Positions 2,623-62,311 of a stretch of 64,000 bases of DNA are shown one piece after another. Source of the DNA: a bacterium (GTDB lineage: Bacteria > Oederibacteriota > CAKKQC01). Made by a program: the position numbers and the translations under genes. Each line of letters starts with the position of its first letter. Position 1 is the first letter of the stretch. The stretch is from the NCBI GenBank assembly GCA_919901855.1, contig CAKKQC010000038.1:1-64000 (forward strand), written 5' to 3'. A model generated the notes under the pieces. That model had not been told where the DNA came from and ran no database searches. It saw only the letters and a list, made by a program, of their open reading frames with translations.

Positions 2623-2628
2623 TACAAT
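2623..2628 (+). promoter_or_regulatory. -10 element, leaderless
   Basis: TACAAT lies exactly 7 bases before the ATG at 2636. With normal -10 to +1 spacing transcription would begin at the start codon itself. No Shine-Dalgarno sequence is present in the gap. Confidence 0.55.
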
Positions 2629-2635
2629 CCGCGAC

Positions 2636-3679
2636 ATGAACGCGGTCGGGACCCGCATCGGCCGGTGGCGGAAGTTCATGAACCCGGCGTCGCCGCCCGG
2701 ATTCCTGTACATCGTCCGGGAACCCATGCAGGAGGCCGGGATGCCCCCGGCAGTCCGGCCGAGCCACCCCGATCGTGCCGCCTGGATGGCCCACATCCGC
2801 TGGCAGTACGACTACCTGCGGCGCCGGACCGGATGGTGGGACGACGACTTCGTGCCGTACCTGAACCTGATGACGGGTACCGAGATCTTTGCCGAGGCCT
2901 TCGGGTGCGTCGTCCACCGGCCCGCGGACGACATGCCGTTCGCGCTTGCGTGCGTCTCGACCCCGGCGCAGGCGGCGAAGCTCAGGGTGCCCGAGTTGTC
3001 GACGTCCACGGCGGCCCGGATCTTCGACATGGCGGACGAACTGCGCCGGGAGTTCGGGACGGAGCCGCTCCTGCGGCTCGCCGATCTCCAGAGCCCCATG
3101 GACGTCACGTCCCTGATCTGGGACAAGAACACGCTCTACGGCGCCATGCTCGAGACGCCGGAGGCGGTCAAGGAGCTCTCGGGCAAGGTGAAGCGGTTCA
3201 TGACCGCCTTCCTCGACGAGTGGTTCCGGCGGTACGGGACCACGGTCGTCGCGCACTACCCGGACTACGTCATGGAACGGTGCGTGTCGTTCTCCGTGGA
3301 CGAGGTCGGGGCGGTCTCGCCGGCCATGTTCGACGAGTTCTTCGCGGACGAGTTGAACGAGCTCTCGGACCGGTACGGCGGGCTGGGCGTCCACTGCTGC
3401 GCGAACGCGAAGCACCAGTGGGGGAAGTTCCGGCGCTTAAGGGGCCTGCGGTTCGTGAACATCGGGGTGTGGTCGGACATCCGCGAGGTCGCGGCCGCGT
3501 TCCCGTCCGTCCTGCACTGGCATAACTGGCGGCCGGAAGGGCCGGTCGAGACGTGGGGGGAGAAGCTGCCGCCGGACACGCGGATCGTGCTCGAGGTATG
3601 GGCTCCCGGTCGCGCCCAGGCCGCCGACCTCGCGGGCCGCCTCGCGGCCCTGCGGCAGGAGCTGTCCCCGGGGTTCTGA
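2636..3679 (+). CDS. Uroporphyrinogen decarboxylase-like protein (URO-D/MtaA superfamily)
   Basis: 347 residues resembling the divergent URO-D-like proteins common in anaerobic and environmental bacteria, which include corrinoid methyltransferases such as MtaA and CmuA as well as many of unknown function. Typical features are the N-terminal helix-rich region (WDDDFVPYLNLMTGTEIFAEAFGC), DLQSPMDVTSLIWD in mid-protein, and LGVHCCANAKHQW near residue 260, where a His-x-Cys-type site could bind zinc as in the methyltransferase members. It is not a haem-pathway HemE: the usual N-terminal arginine motif is absent and no haem genes are nearby. The longer frame starting at 2495 is rejected because the promoter-like TACAAT sits 7 bases before this ATG. 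It ends one base before the convergent NIF3-like gene. Confidence 0.75.
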   Translation: MNAVGTRIGRWRKFMNPASPPGFLYIVREPMQEAGMPPAVRPSHPDRAAWMAHIRWQYDYLRRRTGWWDDDFVPYLNLMTGTEIFAEAFGCVVHRPADDMPFALACVSTPAQAAKLRVPELSTSTAARIFDMADELRREFGTEPLLRLADLQSPMDVTSLIWDKNTLYGAMLETPEAVKELSGKVKRFMTAFLDEWFRRYGTTVVAHYPDYVMERCVSFSVDEVGAVSPAMFDEFFADELNELSDRYGGLGVHCCANAKHQWGKFRRLRGLRFVNIGVWSDIREVAAAFPSVLHWHNWRPEGPVETWGEKLPPDTRIVLEVWAPGRAQAADLAGRLAALRQELSPGF

Positions 3680-3680
3680 G

Positions 3681-4466
3681 TTACAGAAGCCGGAACGATG
3701 AGCCGGCGGGGACAAACCAGACGGGGATGTTCGGGAGGGTGCCCTCGAGCAGGCGGGCCAGGTATTCCATGCCCGCCTCTTCCGATGGTTCGTGGCCGAG
3801 GACGACGAGCGCGGCGCGGCGGCCCTGCCGGACCGCGTCGCGGACCCACTCGTAGGATTCCCACTCGTGGTCCTCGCCGCAGACGACGGCTTCGACGCCC
3901 GGGCGCCTGAGGTCCGCGATCAGGTTCCGCCCGCCGCCGAAGCCCGAATGATAGGCGACGCGGCGGGGGACCAGGCCGGGATCACCGACGACGCGAACGG
4001 CGCCGATGCCGAGCCGCCGCTTGGCTGACGCCACGATTCGGCGGACGGACCAGCGCGGGAAGGCGATGTAGCGTGATCCTGCGGGGTGCTGGAACCGGGT
4101 CCAGCCGAGCCGGTCGAGTTGGCCCTCGCGCACTCCGTCGGGCCGCCGGTCGTGCCAGGTGTCGTGCGTGCGGTAGACGGCGAGATGGTGGCGCTCGATG
4201 AACCGCCTCTTCCTGGCGTAGACGGGGTCGCCGCGGAGCCAGTTCGTCTCGTCGAGGTGGTTGTACCAGAGCGGTTCGTGGGTGACGATCATGTTCGCGC
4301 CGAGTCTGGCCGCCGTCTCGAGGACGGCCTGGGTCGGCATGAACGTGACGACGATCCCGCGGACGGGGTCGTTCGGCCGGCCGCACTTGAGGGTGTCCAC
4401 GGTAACCTTGCGGGGGGCCACGCCCATTCCCGCGTTCATCGTCCGGATCACCTCGGCGATAGTCAT
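3681..4466 (-). CDS. NIF3-like dinuclear metal-centre protein (DUF34)
   Basis: 261 residues of the NIF3/DUF34 family, which form hexameric toroids with a two-metal site and are linked to GTP cyclohydrolase-like or metal-related functions. The N-terminal half has GIVVTFMPTQAVLETAARLGANMIVTHEPLWYN, corresponding to the family block normally ending THHPLFW; here the second histidine is glutamate. The second ligand block, usually YAAHTNLD, reads YRTHDTWHD. The C-terminal block VVCGEDHEWESYEW corresponds to the GExxHH motif and is again altered. A Shine-Dalgarno GGAG precedes the ATG. It begins 22 bases after the end of the GH2 gene, so it is probably the second gene of that operon. The altered ligands suggest a distinct subfamily. 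Confidence 0.8.
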   Translation of the reverse strand: MTIAEVIRTMNAGMGVAPRKVTVDTLKCGRPNDPVRGIVVTFMPTQAVLETAARLGANMIVTHEPLWYNHLDETNWLRGDPVYARKRRFIERHHLAVYRTHDTWHDRRPDGVREGQLDRLGWTRFQHPAGSRYIAFPRWSVRRIVASAKRRLGIGAVRVVGDPGLVPRRVAYHSGFGGGRNLIADLRRPGVEAVVCGEDHEWESYEWVRDAVRQGRRAALVVLGHEPSEEAGMEYLARLLEGTLPNIPVWFVPAGSSFRLL

Positions 4467-4488
4467 GAATCTGCTCCTTTCGCGCGCG

Positions 4489-7400
4489 CTACCGCTGGAT
4501 CAGGTCGAGCTCGGCGACGGAGGCGTACGGCTTGCCATTGACCTCGCTGAGCGCTACCAGTTTGAGCCAGCGGGCCCTGGCGGGGGCGGCGAAGCGGACA
4601 TCCTGGCGGCCGTCGCGGTTCTCGAACCGGCCTTTCGCGACAGGGGTCCCCCAGGCCTTGCCGTCGGCGCTGACGTAGACCTCGTAGTCCGCGATCCGGC
4701 CGTTCTCGTTCCAGTGGCGGGCCGTGTAACGGACCCCATTGAACTCGACCGTCTTCCCGAGGTCGACGACGAGTTCGTGCGGGTGCGCGGGGGCATCCGG
4801 GCTCCAGCGAGAATGCCAGAAGCTGTGCGGGTCCCCGTCGACGGCCATATCCGGCTCGTTGCCGTCGGGCTGGAAGCTGTCGGCCGTGGCCTTCCACTCG
4901 CCCAGCCCGGCGGGATACGCGAAGAGGCCTTCGAGGGGAGGCGCTCCGGGTTCCTCCGCCTTCCACGGCGCGACCGTGCCGTCGGAGCCCGGCCCCGCGA
5001 GCGCCGGCAGGGGACGGCGCGGCGGGACCCGGCGGGCGAGGGAGGAGACGTCCTTCACCGGCTTCGAGAGGATGTTGAGGCAGTAGCCGAACCGCACCGG
5101 GTCCGACCACACGATGTACGGATCCATCGGACGCGGGCCGCACGAGGCCGAGCCCACCCCGAGCGTCTTCGCGGCGAGGACGAGGACGGTGGCCCGGCTG
5201 GGCGGCAGGTCGACCGAGTACGGAGGCGGTTCGAGAATCTCATCCGCGTAGGGAAGCGCGGACGCCTGCATCGGCTTGTCCGGCGAACTCGCGACGAGCC
5301 CCGCGCCCTTGGCGTCCGTCAGCGCCATCCAGGCGACGTCCTCGTGGTTCCCGCACTCCATCGGCTTCGCATACGGCGTGAGCTGGTCGGCCACCGACGA
5401 CTCGTAGAATCCCACGTCGGACCCGCGCTGGCGATCCGCGTAGTTCTCCATAGGCCCCCGGCCGACGTACGCGACCCGGCTCAGCCGCTTGTCGAAGCTC
5501 ATGCGGATGCCGACCCGGGCGAGCGCGATCCGGCGGCCCCGCGGCGAGACGGCGTGGTCCGCGACGATGGTGCCGTCGCCGTAGACGGTGTAGACGGCGG
5601 CGTGGTTCACGCCCCAGTTCCGCTTCCCCTCGCCGAACGTCGAGAGCTCGATTCGGACGGACGCGGGGGTGAGGCGCACGGCGCGCGACGAAAGCGTCCG
5701 CCACGCGAGCGCCCTCAGCCCGTACCGCTTCCACCCCTCGTCGGCCCAGTCGTCGTCGTTCCGGTGCGGCGCGCGCCAGAGGTGCAGCCGCGGCCCGCCG
5801 TTCTCGACGAGAAGGTTCGCGCCCCCGGCGGCCAGCCGGGTGATCGTGCCCGCGGCCCGGTCCACGACCAGCTCGAAGCCGCTGCCGGTCACGATGATCC
5901 AGTTCGGATCCACGGAGAGCTCGACGGGCTTCATCCCGGCGGGGTTGATCGCGGGGGCGGGAAGCGCGGCCGGCAGGGGGAACTGGGCTGCCGCCAGCTC
6001 GAGCCCCTTCGGGCCCCAGGGCCGGTCCTCGGCGAGCGCGAAAGAGACGCGGAGGAAATACTCCACGCCCGGCTTCGCCTTGAACTTCTTCAGCGGCAGG
6101 GCCACTACGGCTTCCTGGCCGGGGCCGAGCGCGGGCACGGCCAGCTTGCCCTGGTCCACTACCACCCCGTCGCCCGCGACCTCCCACGATCCGCGGAACG
6201 CCGACAGGTCGATGAACTGGTACTTGTTCCGGAGCCGGATCCTGCCCGACGCCGCGTCCACGGCCTCGATCCCGATCCACTGGTACGCGCGCTTCATCTC
6301 GGGGTAGTGCGGCTTCGGCGTCCGGTCGTGCCAGACCACGCCCTTGTGGATGAAGTACCAGTCATTCGGCACTTCCCCGAACCCGCCCCCGTACGCCAGG
6401 TAGGGCCGGCCGGGCTGGCGCAGGTTCCAGAGGCCCTGGTCCTGCCACTCCCAGATCGCGCCGCCCATGATCGCCGGGTAGCGGTCGAAGACGTCGTTGT
6501 AGTCGCCGATCGAGCCCATGGAGTTGTTCATCGCATGGGCGTATTCGCACATGTAGTAGGGCTTCGTGAAAGAAGGGTCCTGGGCGATCCGGGCGACTTC
6601 GTCGGGGTGCGTGTACATCTGGCTGTCCACGTCGGCGGGGTTATCCTTGCCGATATCCCAGCTCTGGTAGTGGACCGGCCGGGTGGGGTCGAGCGCGCGG
6701 ACGGCCTCGAGGGCCTTGACGAAGCTCGAGCCCCCGCCGTTCTCGTTGCCGAGCGACCACATTATCACGCTGGCGTGGTTCCGGAAGTTGACCGTGTTCG
6801 CCACGTTCCGGTCCACGATCGCGGACGTGAACCGGGGGTCGCGGTCGAGGACGCCGTACGTGCCGTGGCACTCGACGTTGGCCTCGGCGACCAGCCAGAG
6901 CCCGTATTCGTCGCAGAGCTCGTACCAGCGCGGGTCGTCCGAGTAGTGGCAGGTCCGGACGTGATTGCAGTTGCCCTGCTTGAGTACCTCGATATCCCGG
7001 ATCATGCGCGCCTCGCTGATGACGTGGCCCGTGTCCGCCCAATGCTCGTGCCGGTTGGCGCCCTTGAGCTTGACGGGGACCCCGTTGACCGTGAAGATGC
7101 GGCCCTTGATCTCGACCTTGCGGAACCCGGTGCGGCAGGACAGGTACTCGTCCGCCTTCCGGCCGTCGCCGAGGGCGAGCACGGTCGTGTAGAGGACGGG
7201 GGTCTCGGCGGTCCACTTGGCGGGGGCGGTGACGGGCACCCGGAGGACGGCCTCATGCTTGCCGCCGGGCGCCAGCGCCGGGACCGGAAGCTCGGCGGCG
7301 GCGCCCGCGACCGGGCGTCCCTTCGGGTCGAGCAGGACGACCGAGAGCTTCCGCGCCGGCGAGGGCGAGTTCCCGGAGTTCTTGACCTTCGCGGTCACTT

Positions 7401-8234: not shown

Positions 8235-8273
8235 CGTCTGCACCTCCTGCTATGGTTCAGAATGCCCGAGAGG

Positions 8274-8283
8274 CATAATATAG
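8274..8283. promoter_or_regulatory. Bidirectional AT-rich promoter core
   Basis: An isolated AT-rich tract (CATAATATAG) in an otherwise GC-rich stretch between the divergent GH2 and SDR genes. It offers TAATAT for the plus strand and TATTAT or TATATT for the minus strand. Both genes have Shine-Dalgarno sites, so unlike many others in the window these transcripts would carry leaders of about 30-60 bases. Confidence 0.45.
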
Positions 8284-8292
8284 CCTTTCCGG

Positions 8293-11662: not shown

Positions 11663-11668
11663 TATCAT
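11663..11668 (+). promoter_or_regulatory. -10 element, leaderless
   Basis: TATCAT followed by exactly 7 bases and the ATG at 11676. The alternative ATG at 11667 overlaps the hexamer itself and is rejected as a start. Confidence 0.55.
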
Positions 11669-19247: not shown

Positions 19248-19253
19248 ATCCTA
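19248..19253 (-). promoter_or_regulatory. -10 element, leaderless
   Basis: On the minus strand TAGGAT is followed by 7 bases (AGGGCCA) and the ATG at 19240. No Shine-Dalgarno sequence is present at the usual distance. Confidence 0.5.
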
Positions 19254-19300: not shown

Positions 19301-20548
19301 CTAAAGGCCCGGCGGGCGCGGACGCTTGCCGCCGCGCCGGAAGCTCCAGGCCAGCAGTGGCGGCGTCATCATCGCGGTCACGAAGACCATGACAACGACG
19401 GCGGCGTAGGCGTCGGGCCCGACGATGGGCGCGCCGGCGATGATGAGGCCCGCGCCAAGGCTCACGACGATCAGGCTTACCTCGCCCCGGGGCATCATGC
19501 CGGCCGCGACCGCGAGCGGCTTCAGGCGTCGGTCGAATACCCCGGCCGCGCACGCGAGTTTTCCGAGGACGGCCGCCACGGTCAGTCCAAGTGCGAGTCC
19601 GGCCACGCCGGGCCGCGCCAGCGCGAAGATGTCGGTCCGCGTGCCCACGAGCACGAAGAAGACCGGGGCGAGGAACGACGAGATGGGCCGGATGAGGTGC
19701 TCCAGCGGGCGCTCGCCCCGGTCCAGGAAATCCTGGTAGTGGACCTTCTTGAGGATCAACCCGGCCGCGAACGCGCCGATGATCGGGGCCAACCCCGCGA
19801 CCGAGGCCAGCCATGCGAGCGCGAAGCAGAATCCCAGACTCGAGGCCAGCAGGACCCCATGCACGGGAAGACGCGAGGCGAGGGCAAAGAACCCGGGCGA
19901 TAGCGCGGACCCGATTACGAGGGAGCCGACCAGGAATGCCGCGGCCTTGGCCAAGATCATGCAGATGCCGGCGATCGTCAGGGTCCCGCCCCCGGCGGCG
20001 GCCGCGGCCGCGCCGGCGACGGTGGCGAGGAGCACGAGGCCGAGGACGTCGTCGAGGACGGCGGCGCCGAGGATGATCCGGGCCTCCGGCGTCCGGAGCA
20101 GGCCGCGATCCCGGAGGACCCGGACCGTGATCCCGATGCTCGTGGCCGTGAGGGCCACTCCGAGGAAGGCGTGCACGTACGGGCTGGCGGCCGGCAGAAG
20201 CAGGGACGCCGCGCCCCACCCCAAGGCGAACGTCGCGGCCGTGCCCAGGCCGGCCACGAGGAGGGCCGAGGGTCCGACGTGAAGCATCTCGGCCACCGTG
20301 GTCTCGAGCCCCGCCTCGAAGAGCAGGAGGATCACGCCGAGCTGTCCGAGGAACGCGATGAGCGGCGAGTCCGTGAGCGGTCCGGCGATCCAGGCGAACG
20401 CCGCGGTGCCGACGACGACCCCGGCCAGGATCTCGCCGAGCACGGGCGGCTGGCCCAGCCGGGCCGCGAGTCCGGCCCCCAGCTTCGCCGCCAGAAGGAC
20501 CAGGGCGAGCTGGAGGAATATGGTGCCGGGATCGCCGGGGTTCATCAC
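19301..20548 (-). CDS. Kef-type cation/proton antiporter (CPA2 family)
   Basis: 415 residues, almost entirely membrane helices (about 12). The N-terminal LAARLGQPPVLGEILAGVVVG and LGVILLLFEAGLET are diagnostic for CPA2/KefB-type exchangers. The paired aspartates in LGAAVLDDVLGLVLLA are the conserved ion-binding residues, and RGEVSLIVVSLG near the C-terminus is another family block. There is no C-terminal RCK/TrkA-N domain, so it is a short antiporter rather than a glutathione-gated KefB/C. Probable role: Na+ or K+/H+ exchange for pH or ion homeostasis. I chose the GTG at 20548 because TATCCT lies 6 bases upstream; the ATG at 20545 or the ATGs at 20566 are alternatives. It stands alone, with no operon partner. 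Confidence 0.9.
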   Translation of the reverse strand: MMNPGDPGTIFLQLALVLLAAKLGAGLAARLGQPPVLGEILAGVVVGTAAFAWIAGPLTDSPLIAFLGQLGVILLLFEAGLETTVAEMLHVGPSALLVAGLGTAATFALGWGAASLLLPAASPYVHAFLGVALTATSIGITVRVLRDRGLLRTPEARIILGAAVLDDVLGLVLLATVAGAAAAAAGGGTLTIAGICMILAKAAAFLVGSLVIGSALSPGFFALASRLPVHGVLLASSLGFCFALAWLASVAGLAPIIGAFAAGLILKKVHYQDFLDRGERPLEHLIRPISSFLAPVFFVLVGTRTDIFALARPGVAGLALGLTVAAVLGKLACAAGVFDRRLKPLAVAAGMMPRGEVSLIVVSLGAGLIIAGAPIVGPDAYAAVVVMVFVTAMMTPPLLAWSFRRGGKRPRPPGL

Positions 20549-20631: not shown

Positions 20632-20637
20632 TATCAT
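20632..20637 (+). promoter_or_regulatory. -10 element, leaderless
   Basis: TATCAT with 6 bases (GGGGCC) before the ATG at 20644. The spacer contains no ribosome binding site spaced for this start. Confidence 0.5.
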
Positions 20638-21467: not shown

Positions 21468-23771
21468 ATGAGGCCGAGCCCGGCGGGTACCGCGTTGTAC
21501 GGGGGAGCATTGGTCCTCCTCGCGACCGGGACCGTCCTCGGTGGCGCGCTGGCGGGGTCGCACGCGCTGTTCGGGTCGGACTACATGACGCTCAATTACC
21601 CGATCCTCGCGTGGGCCCAGCGGGCGTGGCGCGAGGCCGGGGAGCTGCCCCTCTGGCTTCCGCACCTATTCGGCGGGATGCCGCTGCTCGGCTCGATGAA
21701 CTCGGGCCTCCTCTACCCGACGGAGCTGGCCGCGTGCCTGACGAATCTTCCGCCGCACCGGTTCTACGCCTGGAACGCCTGGCTCCACGAGGGGATCGCG
21801 GGGGCGGGCGCCGCCTGGATGCTCGCTCGGGAGGGTTTCGCGCGCGGGCCCGCGCTCTGGGGCGGCGTCTGCTACGCGCTTGGCGGACTCGTCTTCACCC
21901 AGCTCGGGGTCGCCGACACGTTCACGCACCGGGCCGTCGCCTGGCTGCCGTGGCTCGTCGGCGGGATCCGCGGCGCGATCAGGAACGGGATCGGATCGTC
22001 GCGCCGGGACCTATTGCTCGCGGGAGGAGTTCTCGGCCTGCTGTGGCTCACGTGCGCGATCCAGATGATCGTGTTCGGGGCCTGCTTCCTCCTGGTCCTT
22101 CAGGCGTGCGAGCGTCCGGCGCACGCGGGCCGGTCGGCGGCGGTCTATGCGATCGTGGGAGCGATCGGCTGCCTGCTGGGGGCGGCCCTGCTCCTGCCCG
22201 CGTTCGACTACTACCGGTTCAGCGACCGGCCCGAGGCGACCGAGGCGTTCGCGAACCTGTGGGCCTGTCGTCCGTCCCGCCTCCTCGGGTTCTTCGTGCC
22301 CGGGTTGTGGGGACGGACGGCGGTGGGCGCGGTCTACTACGGTCCGCACGAGTCGGACAACACGACCGCGTACGCGGGCCTGCTGCCCCTCGCCTGGGCG
22401 GCCTGGGGGATCGTCACGGGCTGGCGCCGGCGGCTGCCGTGGCTCGTGGCGGGGACGTGTGCGTTCGTGCTCGCGTTCGGGAGCCAGACGCCCCTGGGGC
22501 ACCTGATGCAGCAAGCCCCCGTCATCGGCTCGTTCCGCGGGTGGACGCGGTGGCTGCTGGCCGCCAACCTCGCGCTCGCCGTATTCGCGGCGGAGGGATG
22601 GGTCGCGTTCCTGGACCGCCGCCGGACCTGGATCGCGCCGGTCCTGCTCGGCGGGATCGCGTTGGCGGCCGTGACGGCGTGGGTGTTCCGGCCCGCGGTC
22701 ACGGACGTCCTGCTCCGCACGTCGTGGGCGTCGGAGAGGATCGCGTCGGGCGACGTGAAGCGCGCCGAGGCGGAAGCCACGGTCCGGCGCGCGCTGGCGC
22801 GGGCGGCTATTGTCGCTCCCGCCTCGCTCGCGGTGGCTTCGGTGGCCTGCTGGCCGGGGGTGTCCGTCGCGGCGACCGGAGTCCTCGTGGGCGCCTGGAC
22901 CGCGGTGGATCTCGTGCATGCCGCCCGGCCATTTCTCGAGTTGGGCCCGGCGTCACGGCGGGCCGTGTTCGATCCGGTCGGCGAGTTCCTGGACGCGCAG
23001 GACGGACTCTTCCGGGTGGCCTCGGAGGAGCCGGAGCCCCAGAAGAACCTGCGGATCGGCCGGGATGTCCACTACGTCTGGGGTTACCACGGCGTTCCGC
23101 CGCGCGCGCTCTACCGGTTCGGCGCGGCCCTGCGGCGGACTTCCTATCCGCGCGGGCTCCTCGCGATCCTGAACGTCAGGTACTACGTCCAGAAAGACCC
23201 GTTGGTGGCGGGCGACATGCGGCTGATCGGCGGAATGCGCGGGCCGGACGGCCGCCTCGTCTACGTGCACGAGTTTCGCGACCCCCTGCCCCGGCTCTTC
23301 TTCCCGGCCGGGACCCGGGTGGCGGCCGGCGAGGACGCGGCGCTGGAGGCCATGCTCGAGCCGGCGTGGGACTGGCGGACGGCCGTCGTCTTCGGCCGCG
23401 GCGCGCGCGAGGCCCGCTACGCGCCGGCCAGCGCCTCGCCGCTGATCCTGACGCCCAACGAGCGGAGGGCGGTCGTGACGGCGCGTGGGCCGGCGCTGGC
23501 GGTGCTCTCGACGGTCTGGTATCCCGGCTGGATCGCTTTCGTGGATGGGGTCCGCGTGCCCGTCGTGCGGACCGACGTCCTCCTCATGGGCGCCGAGGTG
23601 CCGGCCGGCCGGCACGAACTGCTCTTCCGGCGGGATCCCCGGCCGTTCCGGATCGGGTTGTGGCTGACCTGCCTGGCGGCGGCGGGGCTGGCCGTCCTCG
23701 GGTTTTCGGGTAGCCGCGGCTCCGGTCCCGGCGGGGGGAGTACGATGACAGGTGATGGGCGAGATTCCTGA
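21468..23771 (+). CDS. YfhO-family membrane protein (GT-C type)
   Basis: 767 residues with about a dozen membrane helices in the first 500 and a soluble C-terminal region. Characteristic YfhO blocks are SDYMTLNYPILAWAQRAWRE, LPLWLPHLFGGMPLLGSM and, late, YPRGLLAILNVRYYV and LSTVWYPGWIAFVDGVRVPV. YfhO proteins are GT-C-like and in Firmicutes add sugars to lipoteichoic acid; in other phyla they are assumed to glycosylate lipid-linked or surface glycans. The ATG at 21468 follows the creatininase stop by 35 bases, while the longer frame upstream has no membrane-like or family sequence. The 3' end overlaps the methyltransferase gene, which makes an operon of three surface-glycan-related genes likely. 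Confidence 0.85.
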   Translation: MRPSPAGTALYGGALVLLATGTVLGGALAGSHALFGSDYMTLNYPILAWAQRAWREAGELPLWLPHLFGGMPLLGSMNSGLLYPTELAACLTNLPPHRFYAWNAWLHEGIAGAGAAWMLAREGFARGPALWGGVCYALGGLVFTQLGVADTFTHRAVAWLPWLVGGIRGAIRNGIGSSRRDLLLAGGVLGLLWLTCAIQMIVFGACFLLVLQACERPAHAGRSAAVYAIVGAIGCLLGAALLLPAFDYYRFSDRPEATEAFANLWACRPSRLLGFFVPGLWGRTAVGAVYYGPHESDNTTAYAGLLPLAWAAWGIVTGWRRRLPWLVAGTCAFVLAFGSQTPLGHLMQQAPVIGSFRGWTRWLLAANLALAVFAAEGWVAFLDRRRTWIAPVLLGGIALAAVTAWVFRPAVTDVLLRTSWASERIASGDVKRAEAEATVRRALARAAIVAPASLAVASVACWPGVSVAATGVLVGAWTAVDLVHAARPFLELGPASRRAVFDPVGEFLDAQDGLFRVASEEPEPQKNLRIGRDVHYVWGYHGVPPRALYRFGAALRRTSYPRGLLAILNVRYYVQKDPLVAGDMRLIGGMRGPDGRLVYVHEFRDPLPRLFFPAGTRVAAGEDAALEAMLEPAWDWRTAVVFGRGAREARYAPASASPLILTPNERRAVVTARGPALAVLSTVWYPGWIAFVDGVRVPVVRTDVLLMGAEVPAGRHELLFRRDPRPFRIGLWLTCLAAAGLAVLGFSGSRGSGPGGGSTMTGDGRDS

Positions 23772-29768: not shown

Positions 29769-29774
29769 ATTATA
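29769..29774 (-). promoter_or_regulatory. Consensus -10 element, leaderless
   Basis: A perfect TATAAT on the minus strand followed by 6 bases (GGGGCC) and the ATG at 29762. It is one of the two clearest leaderless sites in the window. Confidence 0.65.
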
Positions 29775-31816: not shown

Positions 31817-31822
31817 ATCGTA
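31817..31822 (-). promoter_or_regulatory. -10 element, leaderless GTG
   Basis: Minus-strand TACGAT, 7-base spacer CGAGGGC, then GTG at 31809. This supports a GTG start with no 5' leader. Confidence 0.5.
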
Positions 31823-34093: not shown

Positions 34094-34103
34094 ACGATAC
34101 CAT
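34094..34103. promoter_or_regulatory. Overlapping divergent -10 elements
   Basis: Within the 23 bases between two divergent starts, plus-strand TACCAT (34098-34103) is 5 bases from ATG 34109, and minus-strand TATCGT (34099-34094) is 8 bases from GTG 34085. Both transcripts would be leaderless or nearly so, and the polymerases would compete for the same bases. Confidence 0.45.
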
Positions 34104-34108
34104 CTAAG

Positions 34109-34882
34109 ATGAATCCCATGCCCGTCGCTCCGACCTCCAGCACGCCCGAGCGCGTCTCCAAACTTCTCGCGGCCAAGGGCCTGTGCTCCCGCCGCGAGGC
34201 CGCCGCGTTCATCAAGCGGGGGTGGGTGCTCCTCGACGGCCGGCCCGTCACCGAGACGGGGGCCAAGGCCTTTCCGGGCCAGGACATCCGGCTCGCGAAG
34301 CCGGCCGAACGCGAGCAGGAGCATACGGTCACGATCATCCTGAACAAGCCGCCGGGGTTCTCGGTCGGCGCGCCCGAGGCCGGGTACCCGGACGCGAACA
34401 CGCTTATCCGACCCCCGAACCAGATGCGTCTGCCCGGCGAGCCCGGGCTCACGGGGGCGCACATCCGGGGGCTGGCCCCCGCGGGGCGGCTGGATCTCAG
34501 CACCCGCGGGCTCATGGTCTACACCCAGGACGGCCGGGTGGCGCGGCGGCTGCTCGGGCACGGCCCCGAGGCCGAGACGAAGCCGATCGAGAAGGAATCG
34601 CTCATCCGGGTGGAGGGAGGCCTCTCGCGGGGCGCGTTCAACCGGCTGCGGGCGGGGGTGGCCATGGACGGGCGCCTGGTGAAGCCCATGGTGCTGGAGT
34701 GGGTGAACGCGGACCAGATCCGGCTCGTGATCAACGAGACCGGGCACCGGCAGGTCTGGCGGCTCTTCGAGGCCGTCCGGGCCCACGTGACCGGGGTGAA
34801 GCGCGTGCGCATCGGTGGCGTCAAGCTCGGGGGCCTGCCTTCGGGCAAGTGGCGGTTCCTGCGGCACGGCGAGCACTTCTAG
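34109..34882 (+). CDS. RluF/RsuA-family rRNA pseudouridine synthase, variant active site
   Basis: 257 residues. An S4 RNA-binding domain (ERVSKLLAAKGLCSRREAAAF, about 14-34) precedes the pseudouridine synthase domain. The catalytic aspartate is D129 in APAGRLDLSTRGLMVY. The C-terminal block RVRIGGVKLGGLPSGKWRFL matches RluF/RluB. The next conserved motif, normally EKEYxVxV, reads EKESLIRV, so the tyrosine that stacks on the target base in most family members is serine here. The motif usually written RQVRRM is RQVWRL. The enzyme probably modifies 23S or 16S rRNA, but activity may be reduced or specificity changed. The start at ATG 34109 is preferred over the longer frame from 34073 because TACCAT lies just upstream; ATG 34118 is also possible. 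Confidence 0.85.
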   Translation: MNPMPVAPTSSTPERVSKLLAAKGLCSRREAAAFIKRGWVLLDGRPVTETGAKAFPGQDIRLAKPAEREQEHTVTIILNKPPGFSVGAPEAGYPDANTLIRPPNQMRLPGEPGLTGAHIRGLAPAGRLDLSTRGLMVYTQDGRVARRLLGHGPEAETKPIEKESLIRVEGGLSRGAFNRLRAGVAMDGRLVKPMVLEWVNADQIRLVINETGHRQVWRLFEAVRAHVTGVKRVRIGGVKLGGLPSGKWRFLRHGEHF

Positions 34883-35116: not shown

Positions 35117-35122
35117 TATAAT
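35117..35122 (+). promoter_or_regulatory. Consensus -10 element before the moxR operon
   Basis: A perfect TATAAT followed by 6 bases and a GTG at 35129. The spacing matches the leaderless sites elsewhere in the window. Confidence 0.6.
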
Positions 35123-35128: not shown

Positions 35129-35164
35129 GTGACCGAGACGCGGTCCCCCGCGAGGATCAGTTGA
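35129..35164 (+). CDS. Putative 11-residue leader peptide coupled to moxR
   Basis: GTG at 35129, 6 bases after TATAAT, opens an 11-codon frame (VTETRSPARIS) that ends in TGA at 35162-35164. That stop overlaps the only available moxR start, TTG 35161, as TTGA. An in-frame GAGG at 35152-35155 lies within the leader at the correct distance for reinitiation at the TTG. This would let a leaderless mini-ORF deliver ribosomes to a weak start. Confidence 0.4.
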   Translation: MTETRSPARIS

Positions 35165-40823: not shown

Positions 40824-40829
40824 TATAAT
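40824..40829 (+). promoter_or_regulatory. Consensus -10 element, leaderless
   Basis: A perfect TATAAT, 7 bases (CCACGTG), then ATG 40837. With 29769-29774 it is the best example of the start-proximal promoter geometry in this window. Confidence 0.65.
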
Positions 40830-40836: not shown

Positions 40837-41727
40837 ATGAAACTGAAGATGCCCATCCTCCTCGACACCGACATCGGGAACGACATCGACGACGCGGTCG
40901 CGCTGGCCTACCTGCTCCGCCAGCCGCGGTGCGAACTGGCGGGAGTGACCTGTGTCACCGGTGACGTCGGACAGCGTTGCGCGCTGACCGACGCCGTCTG
41001 CCGGGCCGCGGGCCGGACCGACATCCCCATTCACGCGGGCGCACGCGACGTGCTCCTGCACGGGCCGGGTCAGCCGACGGTGCCCCAGTACGAGGTGCTG
41101 CGGTCGCGGCCCCATCGCGCGGATTGGCCGGCGGGCACGGCCGTGGAGTTCCTCCGCAGGACGATCCGCGAGCGTCCGGGCGAGATCACGCTGCTCACGA
41201 TCGGGCCGCTGACGAACATCGCCCTCCTCGGCGCGATCGATCCGGAGGTGCTGGTCCTGTTGAAGGAGATGGTGGCGATGGCCGGCGTCTTCTACCCGCA
41301 CGAGTGCGACTCGGAGTGGAACTGCCGCGTGGACCCCGTGGCGACGGCCATGGTCCTGAAGACGACCGCGCGGTTGAAGGTCCCGGTCCGGCTGATCGGA
41401 CTGGATGTCACGATGAAGTGCCGCCTCGGCCCCGACGAGGTGAAGCGGCGGTTCACCCCGTCGCCCCTGGACTTCGTGCTCGAGCTGGCGTCCGTGTGGT
41501 TCCGGGGCGCCAGGGAGATGACCTTCCACGATCCGCTGGCGGCCGCCGTGGTTTTCGAACCGGATCTCTGCGGGTACGAGTCCGGCCTGGTCACGGGCGA
41601 TCCCGGACCCGGCGCCGCGGAGGGCCGCACGCCGTTCACGGCGGGCCCGGGGACGCACACGGTGGCGAAGACCGTGGACCCGGAGGGGTTCTTCAAGGAG
41701 TATTTCTCAGTCTTCGGCGTACAATAG
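40837..41727 (+). CDS. Inosine-uridine-type nucleoside hydrolase
   Basis: 296 residues of the IU-nucleoside hydrolase family, which cleave the N-glycosidic bond of ribonucleosides. The calcium-binding N-terminal cluster LLDTDIGNDIDDAVAL is at residues 8-23, LLTIGPLTNIALL at about 119-131, and the catalytic His-Asp in MTFHDPLAAAV at about 227-237. There is no signal peptide, so it acts in the cytoplasm. It leads a run of four plus-strand genes (GH127, M14-like peptidase, ADP-ribosylglycohydrolase) with gaps of 7, 3 and 4 bases. TATAAT 7 bases upstream selects the ATG at 40837; an in-frame methionine four codons later is less likely. Confidence 0.9.
   Translation: MKLKMPILLDTDIGNDIDDAVALAYLLRQPRCELAGVTCVTGDVGQRCALTDAVCRAAGRTDIPIHAGARDVLLHGPGQPTVPQYEVLRSRPHRADWPAGTAVEFLRRTIRERPGEITLLTIGPLTNIALLGAIDPEVLVLLKEMVAMAGVFYPHECDSEWNCRVDPVATAMVLKTTARLKVPVRLIGLDVTMKCRLGPDEVKRRFTPSPLDFVLELASVWFRGAREMTFHDPLAAAVVFEPDLCGYESGLVTGDPGPGAAEGRTPFTAGPGTHTVAKTVDPEGFFKEYFSVFGVQ
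41720..41725 (+). promoter_or_regulatory. Possible internal -10 element
   Basis: TACAAT at the very end of the nucleoside hydrolase gene lies 9 bases before ATG 41735. It is 2-3 bases further than the other sites, so it may be an internal promoter or a chance match. Confidence 0.3.
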
Positions 41728-48487: not shown

Positions 48488-48494
48488 TATGATA
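48488..48494. promoter_or_regulatory. Bidirectional -10 core between kinase and aldolase-like genes
   Basis: The seven bases TATGATA read as TATGAT on the plus strand and TATCAT on the minus strand. On the minus side the kinase ATG is 6 bases away (leaderless). On the plus side transcription would begin near 48500 and the aldolase-like ATG 48528 is preceded by GGAGGG. Confidence 0.5.
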
Positions 48495-52448: not shown

Positions 52449-52454
52449 ATTCTA
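52449..52454 (-). promoter_or_regulatory. -10 element, leaderless
   Basis: Minus-strand TAGAAT, spacer GGACGCC, then ATG 52441. An in-frame ATG inside the hexamer region is rejected. Confidence 0.55.
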
Positions 52455-56502: not shown

Positions 56503-57105
56503 ATGGAGAATCGAAGCGGTCAATGGTGGACGGTGCTGGCCATGGCGATGCTGGCGGGAAGTCTCGCGCTCGCCGCGCCGGCGACGCCGGCGGTGCCGGG
56601 AGGCGGGAATCCCAACACGGACAATACACACGCGGCGACCCCGGCGGTCCCGGCTGTGGACGACATGGACGACCGGGACGCCGGCGACCTGCTCGGCCAG
56701 GATCCCGCCCTGCGGGACGAAGCGAAGGCGAAGTGGGACGCGATGACTCCGGAGCAGCGGGAGCAGTTCCTGAAGGACCATCCCCGGCTGGCGAAGCGCA
56801 TGCTGAAGCGCACATGGGACAAGATGACGCCCGCGGAGCGGTCGCAGTTCATCCGCAACCATCCGGAGCTGCGGGAGCGGCTGATGGCGCGGTGGCAGGG
56901 CATGACCCCCGAGGAGCGCAAGGCGTTCCTGGACAAGCATCCCCGGATCGCCAAGCGGGCGGCGCACCGGATGCGGACGGAGCGGGGCGAGCGGCCGGGC
57001 AAGCACGGCGACAAGGGCGTCCGCGACCACGGCGCCGGCGAGGGGCGCAACGGGGTGGGCCAGGGCGGCCAGCATCGCGCGCCCGCGGGCGGACCCAAGA
57101 AGTAG
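56503..57105 (+). CDS. Exported DUF3106-like protein with HP repeats
   Basis: 200 residues. A signal peptide (WWTVLAMAMLAGSLALAAPA) is followed by three imperfect repeats of about 32-34 residues, each with WDxMTPEQRxQFLKDHPRLxxR or a close variant, which is the DUF3106-type helical pattern. The C-terminus is glycine- and histidine-rich (GKHGDKGVRDHG) and could bind metal. AGGAGG (56488-56493 region) is strong and rules out the start at 56476. The protein is probably periplasmic; related proteins are annotated only as hypothetical. A hairpin terminator follows. Confidence 0.75.
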   Translation: MENRSGQWWTVLAMAMLAGSLALAAPATPAVPGGGNPNTDNTHAATPAVPAVDDMDDRDAGDLLGQDPALRDEAKAKWDAMTPEQREQFLKDHPRLAKRMLKRTWDKMTPAERSQFIRNHPELRERLMARWQGMTPEERKAFLDKHPRIAKRAAHRMRTERGERPGKHGDKGVRDHGAGEGRNGVGQGGQHRAPAGGPKK

Positions 57106-57128
57106 ACGACACGGCAAGGCCACGGGGG

Positions 57129-57159
57129 GCGGGGGCCGGGACTCAAGTCCGGCCCCCGC
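57129..57159 (+). terminator. GC-rich hairpin terminator
   Basis: A near-perfect inverted repeat (GCGGGGGCCGGGACT against AGTCCGGCCCCCGC, one bulged G) starts 24 bases after the DUF3106-like stop. It has no long T run, as expected for very GC-rich genomes, but its strength and position fit transcription termination. Confidence 0.6.
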
Positions 57160-57224
57160 TTCAGCCCGGGTTCGGATAACGGTTGCACGTTTGCCTTTGC
57201 CGTACGTTGCCGCCGAAGCGGCGG

Positions 57225-57230
57225 TAAGAT
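57225..57230 (+). promoter_or_regulatory. -10 element, leaderless GTG
   Basis: TAAGAT, spacer CAGGCG (6 bases), GTG 57237. No -35 hexamer is recognisable at 16-18 bases upstream. Confidence 0.5.
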
Positions 57231-57236
57231 CAGGCG

Positions 57237-59252
57237 GTGAGGAAGAAGCCGCCCAAGCCCCCTGCCCAGCCGGCGGAGTCCGAGCCGGCCGCGGAGCGCC
57301 CGTCCGGCGCCGGCCCGGCCGTCCCGCCCGCCGCGCGCAAGGAATACCGGTTCGAGATCCAGGAGAAGCAGGGCACCGTCGCGATTGTCGGGCCCCGGGG
57401 CGTCCTGGCCTACCCGAAGTTCTGGATCGGCGTCGAGCTCGCGCAGGGCGAGGTCTTCACCTCCTGTCAGACCGGGCTGTCGGCGGGCGACGGGGCGTGG
57501 GTGAGCGAGGTCGCGAACGGGCGCCTCCTCCTCGGGCTCAGCCTCAAGAGGTCCGTGACCCCCGCCGGCGTCCTGCTCCAGGCTTCGGTCCGGAACAACG
57601 GACCTGAACCCCTCGAGATCCGCCAGCTCCGGGTCGCGCACGCGGTCACGGGCGCGGATGTGACGCCATGGGGGCCCTCGGCGGAATGGAGCCTCCTGCG
57701 TATGGGCTACGCCACCGGTGGGGCGCATCGCGAGGACGCGGACACCCGGAACTCCTCGCGCGTGGCCTTCAACGGGGAGCGGGTGGTGACGCGAAGCTGG
57801 GGGGCGGCGGCGCTGAGATTCGGCGCTTCGCCCAGGGGGCTCGTGGCGGGGTTCGTGACGGCGGAGTTCCAGATGGCCTGGATCGACGTCCGCAAGGACC
57901 GCCACACGGTGGAACTGGCCGCCGTCTGCGAGACGGAAGGTGTGTCCCTGCCGGCGGGCCGCTCTATCGTGTCCGAGACGCTGTACCTGGGCCTGCACGA
58001 CGACGTGCGCCAGGGACTCGCCGAGTACGGGGCGCTGTGCGCGCGGCGGGCGGGCGTCTCCCTCAAGCCCGTGCCGGCCGGCTGGGGCTCCGCGGACTCC
58101 CTGCGCCGCGACGATCTCTCCGGGCCGGCCGTCCTCCGCCAGGCCGCGTGGATCGCCGCGCACCGGCGCGACCTGCCGCTTGGCGTCGTGCGGATCGAGG
58201 AGGGGTGGGCGGGCGCGGCGGGCGACTGGACCGATCCCGCCGGGGGGTTTCCGCGCGGGCTCGCGCCCGTGGCGGCGGGAATAGCGCAGGCGGGGCTCGT
58301 GCCCGGCCTCTCGCTCGCGCCCTTCACGGCGGTCGCGTCGTCGAAGCTCTTCCGCGAGCACCCGGACTGGATGGTCAAGGACGAGACCGGAAAACCCCTG
58401 GCCTGGGACGTGGAGTGGGCCGAGCCCCGCGAGTTCTGGTACGGCCTCGACGGCAGCCATCCCGAGGTCCAGGACTGGCTCCGCGAGCTGTTCCAGTCCC
58501 TGCGGCGCGCCGGCTTCCGGCACTTCCGGCTCGACTGGCTCTTCATGGGCTGTCTCAAGGGCGCGCACGCCGAGCCGGTGACCCGGGTGCGGGCCTACCG
58601 GCTCGGGCTCGAGGCCATCCGCGAGGGGGCGGGCGACGCGTACCTGCTTGGAGTCATGGGGCCGTACCCGCCGTCGGCGGGACTCGTGGACGGCATGCGC
58701 GTGAGCCATGACGTGCATCCGGGCCAGGACCGGTGGGGCCCCCTGTCGGCGGCTTTTGCCGAGGCGCAGCAGCGCTGGTGGATGCACCGGACGCTGTGGA
58801 ACAACGATCCCGGCGCCGTGGTCGTCCGCGGGACCGGTGACGGCGCCGCGGACGAGGCGAGGACGATCGCGACGGGGGCGGAGCTTTCGGGGGGCGCGAT
58901 CTTCGCCGGGGATTCGCTCGACGACCTGCCGGCGGACCGCGTCGCCCTGATCCGGGGCGCGTTGGCCCGGCGCCGGGACGCGGCAGCGGTGCCGGTCGAC
59001 GTGTTCGACCGGGACCTGCCCCGGGTTTTGTCCCTGCCGCTCGGCCGCCGCCGGTTCCGCGTCGGGGTGTTCAACGACACGGGCGAACCCAGGGCATTCG
59101 CGCTCGACCTCGAGGCCTTCGGGCTCGCGCGGGCCCGCGTCTGGGAGCTGGACGGCGAGGTAAGGCGCGCCCTCGGCGTGATCCGCCGCCGGTGCCTTAC
59201 GCCGCCCGTGCCGCCCCGGGGCGTGCGAGTGCTGCTCGTCGAAGGGGCCTGA
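57237..59252 (+). CDS. GH36-type alpha-galactosidase-like enzyme
   Basis: 671 residues from GTG. A proline-rich start (about 1-35) precedes a beta-sandwich (40-270) and a clan GH-D TIM barrel. The nucleophile is D433 in FRHFRLDWLFMG and the acid/base probably D492 in RVSHDVHPGQDRW. LPLGVVRIEEGWAGAAGDWTDP matches the substrate-binding WQ/DDGWQ-region of GH36, and GLVPGLSLAPFTAVASSKLFREHPDWMV the family's next block. It should cleave alpha-galactosyl side groups, as on galactomannan. No export signal is evident, so it is probably cytoplasmic. The frame runs to a TGA 5 bases before the next gene. Confidence 0.85.
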   Translation: MRKKPPKPPAQPAESEPAAERPSGAGPAVPPAARKEYRFEIQEKQGTVAIVGPRGVLAYPKFWIGVELAQGEVFTSCQTGLSAGDGAWVSEVANGRLLLGLSLKRSVTPAGVLLQASVRNNGPEPLEIRQLRVAHAVTGADVTPWGPSAEWSLLRMGYATGGAHREDADTRNSSRVAFNGERVVTRSWGAAALRFGASPRGLVAGFVTAEFQMAWIDVRKDRHTVELAAVCETEGVSLPAGRSIVSETLYLGLHDDVRQGLAEYGALCARRAGVSLKPVPAGWGSADSLRRDDLSGPAVLRQAAWIAAHRRDLPLGVVRIEEGWAGAAGDWTDPAGGFPRGLAPVAAGIAQAGLVPGLSLAPFTAVASSKLFREHPDWMVKDETGKPLAWDVEWAEPREFWYGLDGSHPEVQDWLRELFQSLRRAGFRHFRLDWLFMGCLKGAHAEPVTRVRAYRLGLEAIREGAGDAYLLGVMGPYPPSAGLVDGMRVSHDVHPGQDRWGPLSAAFAEAQQRWWMHRTLWNNDPGAVVVRGTGDGAADEARTIATGAELSGGAIFAGDSLDDLPADRVALIRGALARRRDAAAVPVDVFDRDLPRVLSLPLGRRRFRVGVFNDTGEPRAFALDLEAFGLARARVWELDGEVRRALGVIRRRCLTPPVPPRGVRVLLVEGA

Positions 59253-59257
59253 ACCCC

Positions 59258-61615
59258 GTGCCGGCGGCAGCCGCCGCGGCCCTCCTGACCGGCCTCCTGC
59301 TCGCGACGATCAACCTCGTCCACGGGCTGCACCTGCCCTTCGTCGTCGCGGACTCGTGGGTCAAGCTCGTGCACTACCGCTTCGGGTATTTCGACCTCCG
59401 GGTCTTCGCCGCGGCCTGGGGGGGCCACGTCTGGTCCGCGGCCGGCGCCGCGCTCGTGCTCGGGGGGGCCTGGGGGCTCGGGCGTTCATGGAGCGCTGGA
59501 GTCCCGGAATCGCTGGGGCTCGGGTTCGGCGCGAGCGCGCTGGTCGCGCTCGGATGCGGGCTCTGCGGCCTGTTTTCGCCCGTGGTTCTGCTCCCCGTGC
59601 TGGCCGCGGGGGGCGTCGGCGTGGTCCGGCATAGGGCCGAGCTCGTCGCGGCCCGGCGGCGGCTGGCGGCGTCGGTCGAGCCCCTGACGGGCGAGACGCG
59701 GTGGTTGCTGGCGGCGTTGGCGGTGATGGGCTCCGTGAGCCTGCTCGTGTCGCTCGGGCCGGAGATGGGCTGGGACCCCGCCTACTACCACCTGCGCCTG
59801 CCGAAACTCTACGCGATGGCGCACCGCATCGGCTTCGTTCCCTGCATATATCCGTCGCACTACCCGCAGACGATCGAACTGCTTTACGGCCTCGGGTGGC
59901 TCGCCGGCGGGGAGGGCGCGGCGAAGCTCGTGAACTGGTCGTTCTGGGGACTCTGCGGCCTCGCGCTTCTGCGGCTGGCTGGCGCCCTGGATGGGCGCGG
60001 CGTGGGCCTCCGGGCCGCCGCGCTCGCGCTCACGCTGCCCCTGGCCGGCACGCTCGCGAGCGAGAACTACATCGACCTGGGGCTCACGTTCCTCGAGCTG
60101 CTCGCGCTGTCCGCGGCTCTGTCGGGCCGCGCCGTCGCGGCCGGCTGCCTGATCGGCTTCGCGATGGGCTCGAAGTACACGGCCGTGATCGCGGCATTCG
60201 CCCTCGCGGTGGCATGGTGCACGCGCGGGGGGAGCCGGCGAGGTCTCGCCGTCCTTGCGGCGGTTGCCGTGCTCCCCGTCGCGCCGTGGCTGGTGAAGAA
60301 CTGGCTGTTCACCCGCGACCCCGTCGCCCCGTTCCTGTACGCCAGGTTCGGCGGGATCGAGTGGGCGGGGGGGATCAGCCAATCCGCGATGGTCGAGGTG
60401 ATCCCGAAGCTCGGGCCGACGACCTGGGGCCAGCGCGGCGTCGCGCTCCTGCTGGGGCCCTGGTGGTTCCTGAAGACGTTTTCCTTCGCCGTCCTGACCC
60501 CGTTCCTGATCGGGTGCCTCCCCGTCCTCGCCATGCGCTGGACCGGTGCTGCGGGGGCCGTGCGCGCCTACACGGTCGCGGGCACGGCGGCGGTCCTGGT
60601 CCTCGCGCCCGACGGCCGCTACTGGCAGCCGTTCGGGTTCGTGCTCGCGCTCCTCGCGGCCGCCACCTGGAAGCGTGCCGAGCTCGAGGGCCGCCCCCTG
60701 CTGCGCCGCGGCCTCGCGGTGTTTGCCTGGGCCTCGATCGGGTTCGGCCCGGTATTCCACGCCTTCGACATGCAGCGGCTCTTCACCCCGGCCTGGGTGT
60801 CGCTTGGACTCGAGCCCGCGTGGGTCTACCACTCCCGCGTGAACCAGCCGTCGCCTTGGTACGCGGTGGCCGTGAGCTGGGCGAACCGGAACACGCCCCG
60901 GGGGGAGCGGATCGCGGTCGTGTCCGACGTGCAGGCGTACCTCTTCGACCGCGAGGCGATCTTCGACTGCGACGCGCCGGGGTCGCGGCGCTGGATCACG
61001 CGCCTGCTCGAGCGTCGTCCCGACGCCCGGGGCCTCGACCGCCAGTTCCGCCAGTGGCACGTCTCGACCATCTTCTACATCCGGGGCAAGGCGATGGCCG
61101 CGGCGCGCGGCGAGACGTGGGACCCCCGGGCCACGGCCCGTCTCGCCGCGTGGTGGAACCGCCGCGCGCGCCGGGTCTTCTACCGCGGCCACTGCTCGAT
61201 CTACGAGCTCTCCACGCCGGGTCCGGCGACGCTCCAACTCGACGTGCCGGGTCCGCAGGAGGCGATCCTCATGCGCCTCGTCGCCGCCCCCGATGCCGCC
61301 GCCCGGCGCGAGGTCTACCGGGCGGCGCTGGCCGCGGGCGCGGAGAGCGCGGTGCTCGACGGCGCATGCGGGGAGGCGGCGCTCGAGGCGCGGCCGCCGG
61401 AGCCGGCCGACGCCGCCTCGGCGCTGGCGCGGGCGGTCGCGATCGCGCCCGACGCCCCCGGTCTCTGGATCTCGTACGGGCAGGCGCTGACGGCGGCCAG
61501 GCGGTTCGCCGCGGCCGGCGCGGCCCTCGCGAAGGCGCGCGAGCTCAACCCGTTGCACGAGGACCTGGGTAGCGCGGAAACCGGGCTCGCGCGCGCCGAA
61601 GGGCGCAGGCGTTGA
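59258..61615 (+). CDS. Large GT-C-like membrane protein with TPR-like C-terminus
   Basis: 785 residues from GTG 59258. About thirteen membrane helices end near residue 530. The first large loop has GPEMGWDPAYYHLRLPKLYAMAH, an acidic and aromatic segment that is also seen in the 29818-31809 protein. A soluble part follows, with RNTPRGERIAVVSDVQAYLFD, RQWHVSTIFYIRG and, at the very end, TPR-like pairs (DAASALARAVAIAPDAPGLWISYG and AAGAALAKARELNPLHEDLG). Its operon mates are a GH36, a PD-(D/E)XK nuclease, a TPR protein and a GT2. The likely role is membrane glycosyl transfer; donor and acceptor are unknown. Confidence 0.8.
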   Translation: MPAAAAAALLTGLLLATINLVHGLHLPFVVADSWVKLVHYRFGYFDLRVFAAAWGGHVWSAAGAALVLGGAWGLGRSWSAGVPESLGLGFGASALVALGCGLCGLFSPVVLLPVLAAGGVGVVRHRAELVAARRRLAASVEPLTGETRWLLAALAVMGSVSLLVSLGPEMGWDPAYYHLRLPKLYAMAHRIGFVPCIYPSHYPQTIELLYGLGWLAGGEGAAKLVNWSFWGLCGLALLRLAGALDGRGVGLRAAALALTLPLAGTLASENYIDLGLTFLELLALSAALSGRAVAAGCLIGFAMGSKYTAVIAAFALAVAWCTRGGSRRGLAVLAAVAVLPVAPWLVKNWLFTRDPVAPFLYARFGGIEWAGGISQSAMVEVIPKLGPTTWGQRGVALLLGPWWFLKTFSFAVLTPFLIGCLPVLAMRWTGAAGAVRAYTVAGTAAVLVLAPDGRYWQPFGFVLALLAAATWKRAELEGRPLLRRGLAVFAWASIGFGPVFHAFDMQRLFTPAWVSLGLEPAWVYHSRVNQPSPWYAVAVSWANRNTPRGERIAVVSDVQAYLFDREAIFDCDAPGSRRWITRLLERRPDARGLDRQFRQWHVSTIFYIRGKAMAAARGETWDPRATARLAAWWNRRARRVFYRGHCSIYELSTPGPATLQLDVPGPQEAILMRLVAAPDAAARREVYRAALAAGAESAVLDGACGEAALEARPPEPADAASALARAVAIAPDAPGLWISYGQALTAARRFAAAGAALAKARELNPLHEDLGSAETGLARAEGRRR

Positions 61616-61620
61616 GATGC

Positions 61621-61626
61621 TACGAT
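61621..61626 (+). promoter_or_regulatory. -10 element, leaderless GTG
   Basis: TACGAT, spacer GGAATTG (7 bases), GTG 61634. It supports a start three codons downstream of the first in-frame ATG (61625), which overlaps the hexamer. Confidence 0.45.
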
Positions 61627-61633
61627 GGAATTG

Positions 61634-62311
61634 GTGCCAAACTTCAAGCTGAGCCCGTCGGATTTCGGCTTCCTCTGGACCGAGTGCCGGCGCTGCTTCT
61701 ACCTCAAGGTGGCCAAAGGGTTCCCGCGTCCGGACACGGGGTTCCCCAAGATCTTCAACGTCATCGACAAGCAGATGAAGGACCGGTTCGCGGGGAAGCG
61801 ATCGGAGGACATGGCGCCCGGCGTGCCGGCGGGCACGGTGCACCGGAGCGACGAATGGGTCGAGTCGGTGCCCCTCGTTCGCCCCGGCCGCTCCGCCACC
61901 GCCTTCATCCGGGGCATCTTCGACACGGTGCTCAAGCTCGACGGCGGGGGATACGCGATCGTCGACTTCAAGACCTCGACCGTCGACCCCCGGGCGGCCG
62001 CGAAGTACGGCCGCCAGTTGCACGCCTACGCGGTCGCGCTGGAGCGCCCGGCGCCGGGCCGGCTGGGCCTGAGCCCCGTGGACACGCTCGGCCTCCTTGT
62101 CTACGAGCCGACCGCGTTCGCGACGGGCGGGGCCGGGACGGCGAGCCTGGAGGGCAGGTTCCAGTGGCTCGGGATCGAGCGCGACGACGACGCGTTCTTC
62201 GGTTTCGTGGACGAGATGCTCGCCGTGCTCGAGCGCGCCGATCCGCCGGCGGCGAACCCGGAGTGCGCGCTCTGCCGCTACCGCGAGGCGAGTCGCCGGA
62301 ACGGCTGGTGA
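61634..62311 (+). CDS. PD-(D/E)XK nuclease-family protein with two CxxC pairs
   Basis: 225 residues from GTG 61634. The nuclease core has D97 in FIRGIFDTVLKLDGGG and the D111-x-K113 of YAIVDFKTSTVD, followed by RQLHAYAVAL, the QxxxY helix of RecB/Cas4-like nucleases. C18/C21 (TECRRCFYLK) and C211/C214 (PECALCRYRE) bracket the core in the way the four cysteines of Cas4 and AddB iron-sulphur nucleases do, although spacing differs. It is much shorter than AddB and has no helicase or CRISPR neighbour. DNA end processing is the family role; its job beside membrane glycosyltransferases is unclear. Confidence 0.75.
   Translation: MPNFKLSPSDFGFLWTECRRCFYLKVAKGFPRPDTGFPKIFNVIDKQMKDRFAGKRSEDMAPGVPAGTVHRSDEWVESVPLVRPGRSATAFIRGIFDTVLKLDGGGYAIVDFKTSTVDPRAAAKYGRQLHAYAVALERPAPGRLGLSPVDTLGLLVYEPTAFATGGAGTASLEGRFQWLGIERDDDAFFGFVDEMLAVLERADPPAANPECALCRYREASRRNGW

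Follow-up and report, generated by a model that had tools for sequence, protein, structure and literature searches.

TANNAT hexamers recur at fixed short distances before start codons in the genome (G000) from which the window, the 64 000-nucleotide stretch of DNA analysed here, was taken. Judged from their sequence setting, they are very probably −10 elements read by sigma-A, with the transcription start on or directly beside the start codon and with leaderless or very short-leadered transcripts as the product. The 5′ end of each such mRNA should coincide with the start codon or lie no more than about three letters away; the actual transcription start, its use in vivo and the way in which ribosomes bind are what we infer from this arrangement. 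The layout serves about one gene in ten, or about a quarter of the genes that need a promoter of their own.

The source genome comprises 4.68 Mb in 91 contigs. Whole-genome counts are raw pattern counts, while gene-based figures cover 1.98 of the 4.68 Mb and 1520 genes predicted by a simple gene finder of our own, whose start assignments carry error. The finder uses codon usage only and is blind to upstream motifs. The gap is defined as the number of bases between the hexamer and the start codon. The family of the source genome (f1) is represented by two genomes, the second (G001) belonging to another genus, and the phylum sample consists of 45 genomes: these two and 43 others.

Elements in the window and across the genome

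The original prediction listed 12 TANNAT sites located 6 or 7 bases before a start codon. Hexamer and gap are right at all 12 and the start is in frame with a predicted gene at 11, the exception being 35129. TANNAT at gap 6 or 7 precedes 12 of the 48 genes predicted in the window, compared with 0–1 genes for each of 14 other gap pairs. The list was incomplete, the elements before 23755 (TACGAT, gap 8) and 41735 (TACAAT, gap 9) having been overlooked. Three looser cases had also been proposed. At 34109 the element stands and the start does not, ATG 34118 (TAAGAT, gap 7) being the better choice; at 20548 on the reverse strand the hexamer at gap 6, TATCCT, fits TANNNT and not TANNAT; and the reverse-strand candidate before 34085 (TATCGT, gap 8) is weak and probably not a real element. 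The sites are as follows, where −10 denotes a putative −10 element.

2623–2628, forward strand: −10 TACAAT, gap 7 to ATG 2636, URO-D domain protein
11663–11668, forward strand: −10 TATCAT, gap 7 to ATG 11676, BadF/BadG ATPase family
19248–19253, reverse strand: −10 TAGGAT, gap 7 to ATG 19240, DUF11 repeat protein of 1807 aa
20555–20560, reverse strand: weak −10 TATCCT, gap 6 to GTG 20548 or gap 9 to ATG 20545, Na/H exchanger
20632–20637, forward strand: −10 TATCAT, gap 6 to ATG 20644, creatininase family
23741–23746, forward strand: −10 TACGAT, gap 8 to ATG 23755, methyltransferase; absent from the original list
29769–29774, reverse strand: −10 TATAAT, gap 6 to ATG 29762, SASA carbohydrate esterase
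31817–31822, reverse strand: −10 TACGAT, gap 7 to GTG 31809, protein of 663 aa without a Pfam family
34094–34099, reverse strand: weak candidate TATCGT, gap 8 to GTG 34085, GH5
34105–34110, forward strand: −10 TAAGAT, gap 7 to ATG 34118, S4/pseudouridine synthase
35117–35122, forward strand: TATAAT, 6 bases before GTG 35129, 11-codon frame; apparently a leadered promoter, not a leaderless one
40824–40829, forward strand: −10 TATAAT, gap 7 to ATG 40837, nucleoside hydrolase
41720–41725, forward strand: −10 TACAAT, gap 9 to ATG 41735, GH127; short-leader class, absent from the original list
48489–48494, reverse strand: −10 TATCAT, gap 6 to ATG 48482, PfkB kinase
52449–52454, reverse strand: −10 TAGAAT, gap 7 to ATG 52441, SIS domain
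57225–57230, forward strand: −10 TAAGAT, gap 6 to GTG 57237, melibiase-like
61621–61626, forward strand: −10 TACGAT, gap 7 to GTG 61634, PD-(D/E)XK nuclease

GTG 35129 was rejected as a leaderless start: its frame runs for 11 codons (VTETRSPARIS) and is closed by a TGA. Overlapping this TGA is TTG 35161, the start of a gene for a MoxR-type AAA ATPase, and GAGG is located five bases upstream of that TTG. The site therefore looks leadered, with TATAAT resembling an ordinary promoter that would give the MoxR gene a 32-base leader. The segment 35117–35164 could encode a leaderless leader peptide coupled to the MoxR gene or could be just the 32-base leader.

An enrichment at 6–7 bases is strongly present genome-wide, as the original prediction had anticipated: TANNAT-N6/7-ATG occurs 341 times in the whole source genome against about 80 expected (from gaps 14–17, with 160 occurrences over four gaps and thus 80 for two) and 183 times in G001 against about 64. 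The reversed pattern occurs 46 times in the source genome. The hexamer had been called rare by chance, and with the other gaps and the reversed pattern at background this view is sustained. With starts assigned by codon usage only, TANNAT peaks at gaps 6, 7 and 9 of the 1520 genes; the counts at gaps 6, 7, 8, 9 and 10 are 47, 33, 14, 41 and 11 (146 genes), on a background of about three per gap. A ranking of upstream patterns that was not seeded with the motif places TA..AT at gap 6 as the most enriched; TA..AT at gaps 9 and 7 ranks high as well, as do Shine–Dalgarno patterns, GGAG among them. A weaker variant, TANNCT, counts 18 versus 2.2 at gap 6. By weight matrix, the excess amounts to about 10% of all genes. 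The description of the trait as widespread needs qualification; it applies to approximately 10–13% of genes and 20–28% of divergently read genes, a minority.

The element is conserved between the two genera. In 75 usable reciprocal-best pairs between the source genome and part of G001, it is found in both members of eight pairs, in the source genome only in five, in G001 only in seven and in neither in 55 (p = 3e-4); G001 keeps it in 8/13 pairs in which the source genome has it versus 7/62 otherwise. At control gaps 16–20 the element is common to 0/75 pairs. By eye, several one-sided pairs show TANNNT at a similar place in the other genome. The gap itself shifts from one orthologue to the other, as in a pair with 83% identity (8 versus 6); the G001 orthologue of the methyltransferase at 23755 has TAGCAT at gap 6.

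Promoter features and alternative readings

In the proposed mechanism, the hexamers would be −10 elements of the housekeeping sigma-A RNA polymerase with the consensus tgnTANNAT and the weaker form TANNCT, and the polymerase would start on a purine 7 or 8 positions past the last T. At gaps 6–7 this purine would be the first letter of the start codon, A or G; at gap 9 it would apparently be the third base before ATG. A purine +1 on the start codon or three bases before it would leave the transcript with no leader or with a very short one, and a start codon at the 5′ end would be taken directly by ribosomes, probably in the form of assembled 70S particles.

Several features point to promoters. 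TG occupies the extended −10 position in 38 of the 146 sites (26%, versus a background of 4.9%; p = 1e-17), and a pyrimidine–purine step falls on the start codon at 35/47 sites with gap 6 and 21/33 with gap 7, as a signature of the sequence only. No strong −35 element was found in the 146 sites: TTG is present at −23 in nine and at −18 in eight, with C at −20. Regions 3.0 and 4.2 of sigma-A function in promoter reading. The RpoD of the source genome has the usual RIPVHMIETINKL and helix-turn-helix sequence in region 3.0/4.2, so a standard sigma-A can read TANNAT elements. The genome contains two housekeeping-like sigma-70 genes of the RpoD type (on C21, L063, and C30, L064) among 13 matches to sigma-70 region 2. 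A second, partial match to the RNA polymerase beta family (RNA_pol_Rpb2_6) is located in a 1135-aa open frame (G000:C28:1296-1697), the full rpoB being on C19.

The element also follows gene arrangement. Its strict form stands before 20% of the genes that are read divergently and before 5% of those that follow a co-directional gene at a distance of under 30 bases. If start positions may move by as much as 45 bases, the share of genes with an element is about 28% for divergent genes, 11% for co-directional genes preceded by 50 bases or more and 7% for genes that follow a neighbour by fewer than 20 bases. The TG extension, the initiator step, the rarity inside operons and the conservation in orthologues had all been left unused when leaderless transcription was proposed, and all agree with it.

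The further claim that TANNAT starts lack a Shine–Dalgarno sequence extends to the whole leaderless set, with only 3.4% having one of their own. Shine–Dalgarno sites were said to serve other genes, and they do: GGAGG peaks 5–7 bases before other starts, and the 3′ end of the 16S gene, GGATCACCTCCTTTCT, is the usual anti-Shine–Dalgarno. On these two grounds, the leaderless and Shine–Dalgarno modes coexist in the genome. About 67% of the 1520 predicted genes have neither a strong Shine–Dalgarno sequence nor a TANNAT element.

The hexamer sits where a ribosome-binding signal would sit, and other bacteria are known to have AT-rich signals ahead of their starts (PMC3160421). It might accordingly be a translation signal in the mRNA, such as an S1-binding or unstructured patch, in a transcript that begins further upstream. 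Such a signal should serve operon-internal genes too, yet the element is about fourfold rarer there; the TG extension and the initiator step are features of promoters, and the reversed hexamer shows no such peak. We regard this reading as very unlikely. The elements might instead be true promoters of leadered mRNAs that are translated from a later in-frame start with a Shine–Dalgarno sequence, as in something similar at 35129/35161. Such downstream starts are rarer in the leaderless set (2.7%) than in other genes (8%), codon usage has a coding character immediately after the leaderless starts, and it is the start codon itself that is kept at the fixed gap; this reading is highly improbable. 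In favour of an origin by chance, or by a local rise in A+T around the starts of genes in GC-rich DNA, all that can be cited is that upstream regions may in general contain more A+T. Such an origin is refuted by the gap control, with other gaps and the reversed pattern at background, and two GC-rich genomes of the same phylum (G019 and G020) have little or no excess, which leaves it a negligible probability. The reading as sigma-A −10 elements with a start at or beside the start codon is thus preferred.

A second spacing at nine bases

Raw counts, which are independent of gene calls, give 148 sites at gap 9 versus 74 at gap 8 in the whole source genome (p = 8e-7); those for G001 are 77 versus 47 (p = 0.009). 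In the gap 9 class, a pyrimidine–purine step occurs three bases before ATG in 22/41 sites (29.6% expected; p = 0.0016), at the same distance from the −10 element as in the gap 6 class. Gap 9 sites are nearly always paired with ATG, and GTG starts account for 14/47 sites at gap 6 versus 6/66 at gaps 8–10 (p = 0.006). The simplest reading is that of a three-base leader that needs ATG; alternatively, transcription may start at gap 9 itself. Two other explanations were discarded. An in-frame TAG/TAA artefact of the gene-based counts, which could raise gaps 6 and 9, does not account for the peak, as the raw whole-genome counts show the same excess, and a non-standard start codon at gap 6 is contradicted by the mixed triplets found there. 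The gap 9 peak is absent from plasmid pTT27 of Thermus thermophilus (one site) and is not visible in plasmid P1 of Deinococcus deserti, both being small samples.

Under the three-base-leader reading, there may tentatively be two discrete leader lengths of 0 and 3 bases, with intermediates disfavoured and the ribosome reading the 5′ end in whole codons, a proposal that we consider possible but doubtful. GTG would then be tolerated mainly as the first codon of the RNA and the class with a three-base leader would be nearly all ATG, and reading in whole codons would correspond to an empty or a filled E-site triplet. If confirmed by 5′-end mapping, the pattern of 0-base versus 3-base leaders would provide a direct test of how ribosomes take up short 5′ ends.

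Distribution and comparison with known systems

Within the phylum sample of 45 genomes, the enrichment is strong only in family f1. The observed/expected ratio in the 43 other genomes is about 1.1–1.6 in family f10 and close to 1 for most of the rest. GC-rich G019 and G020, from other families, show 41 versus 32 and 41 versus 40, respectively, so high G+C content alone does not bring the trait. Twelve named proteobacterial and acidobacterial control genomes have ratios of 0.9–1.7. Two GC-rich Burkholderiales, Caldimonas mangrovi and a Burkholderiaceae MAG (G055/L138 and G056/L140), reach 3.3, on small numbers (74 versus 22.5 each), and pTT27 has 13 occurrences of TANNAT-N6/7-ATG versus 2. The excess per megabase is about 56 in the source genome, 36 in G001 and 9–15 in the two Burkholderiales. 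Among the matches listed in a scan of named genomes, RpoB from the source genome reaches about 50–55% identity, scattered over several phyla. In a PDB comparison of the same protein, which ranks chains only, Thermus chains score below many other bacterial chains, which speaks against a place in Deinococcota. Leaderless expression is usually tied to Deinococcota and Actinomycetota, and a strong, family-limited case in a phylum with little or none elsewhere would make it easier to date when the trait was gained. Annotators of such genomes could use the −10 element to locate starts.

The trait is known elsewhere and the family of the source genome shows the known layout, since signals of this kind have been described by Zheng et al. 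(2011; PMC3160421) in 207 of 953 bacterial genomes, by Zhong et al. (2025; PMC12340547), who checked leaderless −10 promoters in Deinococcus by reporter, and by Cortes et al. (2013; PMC3898074), who mapped 5′ ends in Mycobacterium tuberculosis. Less expected are the family-limited enrichment within the phylum and the second preferred gap of 9 bases. The layout had been described as known in Deinococcus–Thermus and Actinobacteria, which is correct, although it is not confined to these two groups (Table 2 of Zheng et al., 2011). The TA-led genes in that survey carry the same kind of signal in Acidobacteria, Chloroflexi, delta-Proteobacteria and others. Its high-GC groups have TAnnnT with an uninformative middle, unlike the source genome, and it reports the TG peak for genomes of low G+C, Lactococcus for example, whereas the source genome is GC-rich. 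According to a review (PMC9031893), leaderless mRNAs are translated by 70S ribosomes and a 5′ UTR inhibits ribosome binding in that mode.

Deinococcus–Thermus resembles the source genome in placing the −10 element 6–7 bp before the start codon beside Shine–Dalgarno genes; for D. radiodurans, PMC12340547, and de Groot et al. (2014) as cited there, give this layout for about a third of genes. The same pipeline finds peaks at gaps 6–7 in the T. thermophilus and D. deserti plasmids, the training threshold of the gene finder having been lowered for D. deserti P1 relative to the higher-G+C setting. The motif in Deinococcus–Thermus is TANNNT, most often TACACT with C at position 5, whereas A dominates at that position in the source genome, which also differs in having TGN in about a quarter of its sites and a second peak at gap 9. 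M. tuberculosis shares TANNNT, the lack of a clear −35 element and the restriction to a minority of genes, as well as a purine +1 with C at −1, which we count as a likeness; TGN is present in 7% of its TANNNT promoters compared with 26% of TANNAT sites here (PMC3898074). Its leaderless set was measured by RNA, whereas ours is predicted from the genome sequence. Overall, the differences between the family and these systems are of degree: in its GC-rich DNA, A is favoured at position 5, the TG extension is frequent, and sites of a gap 9 class are present.
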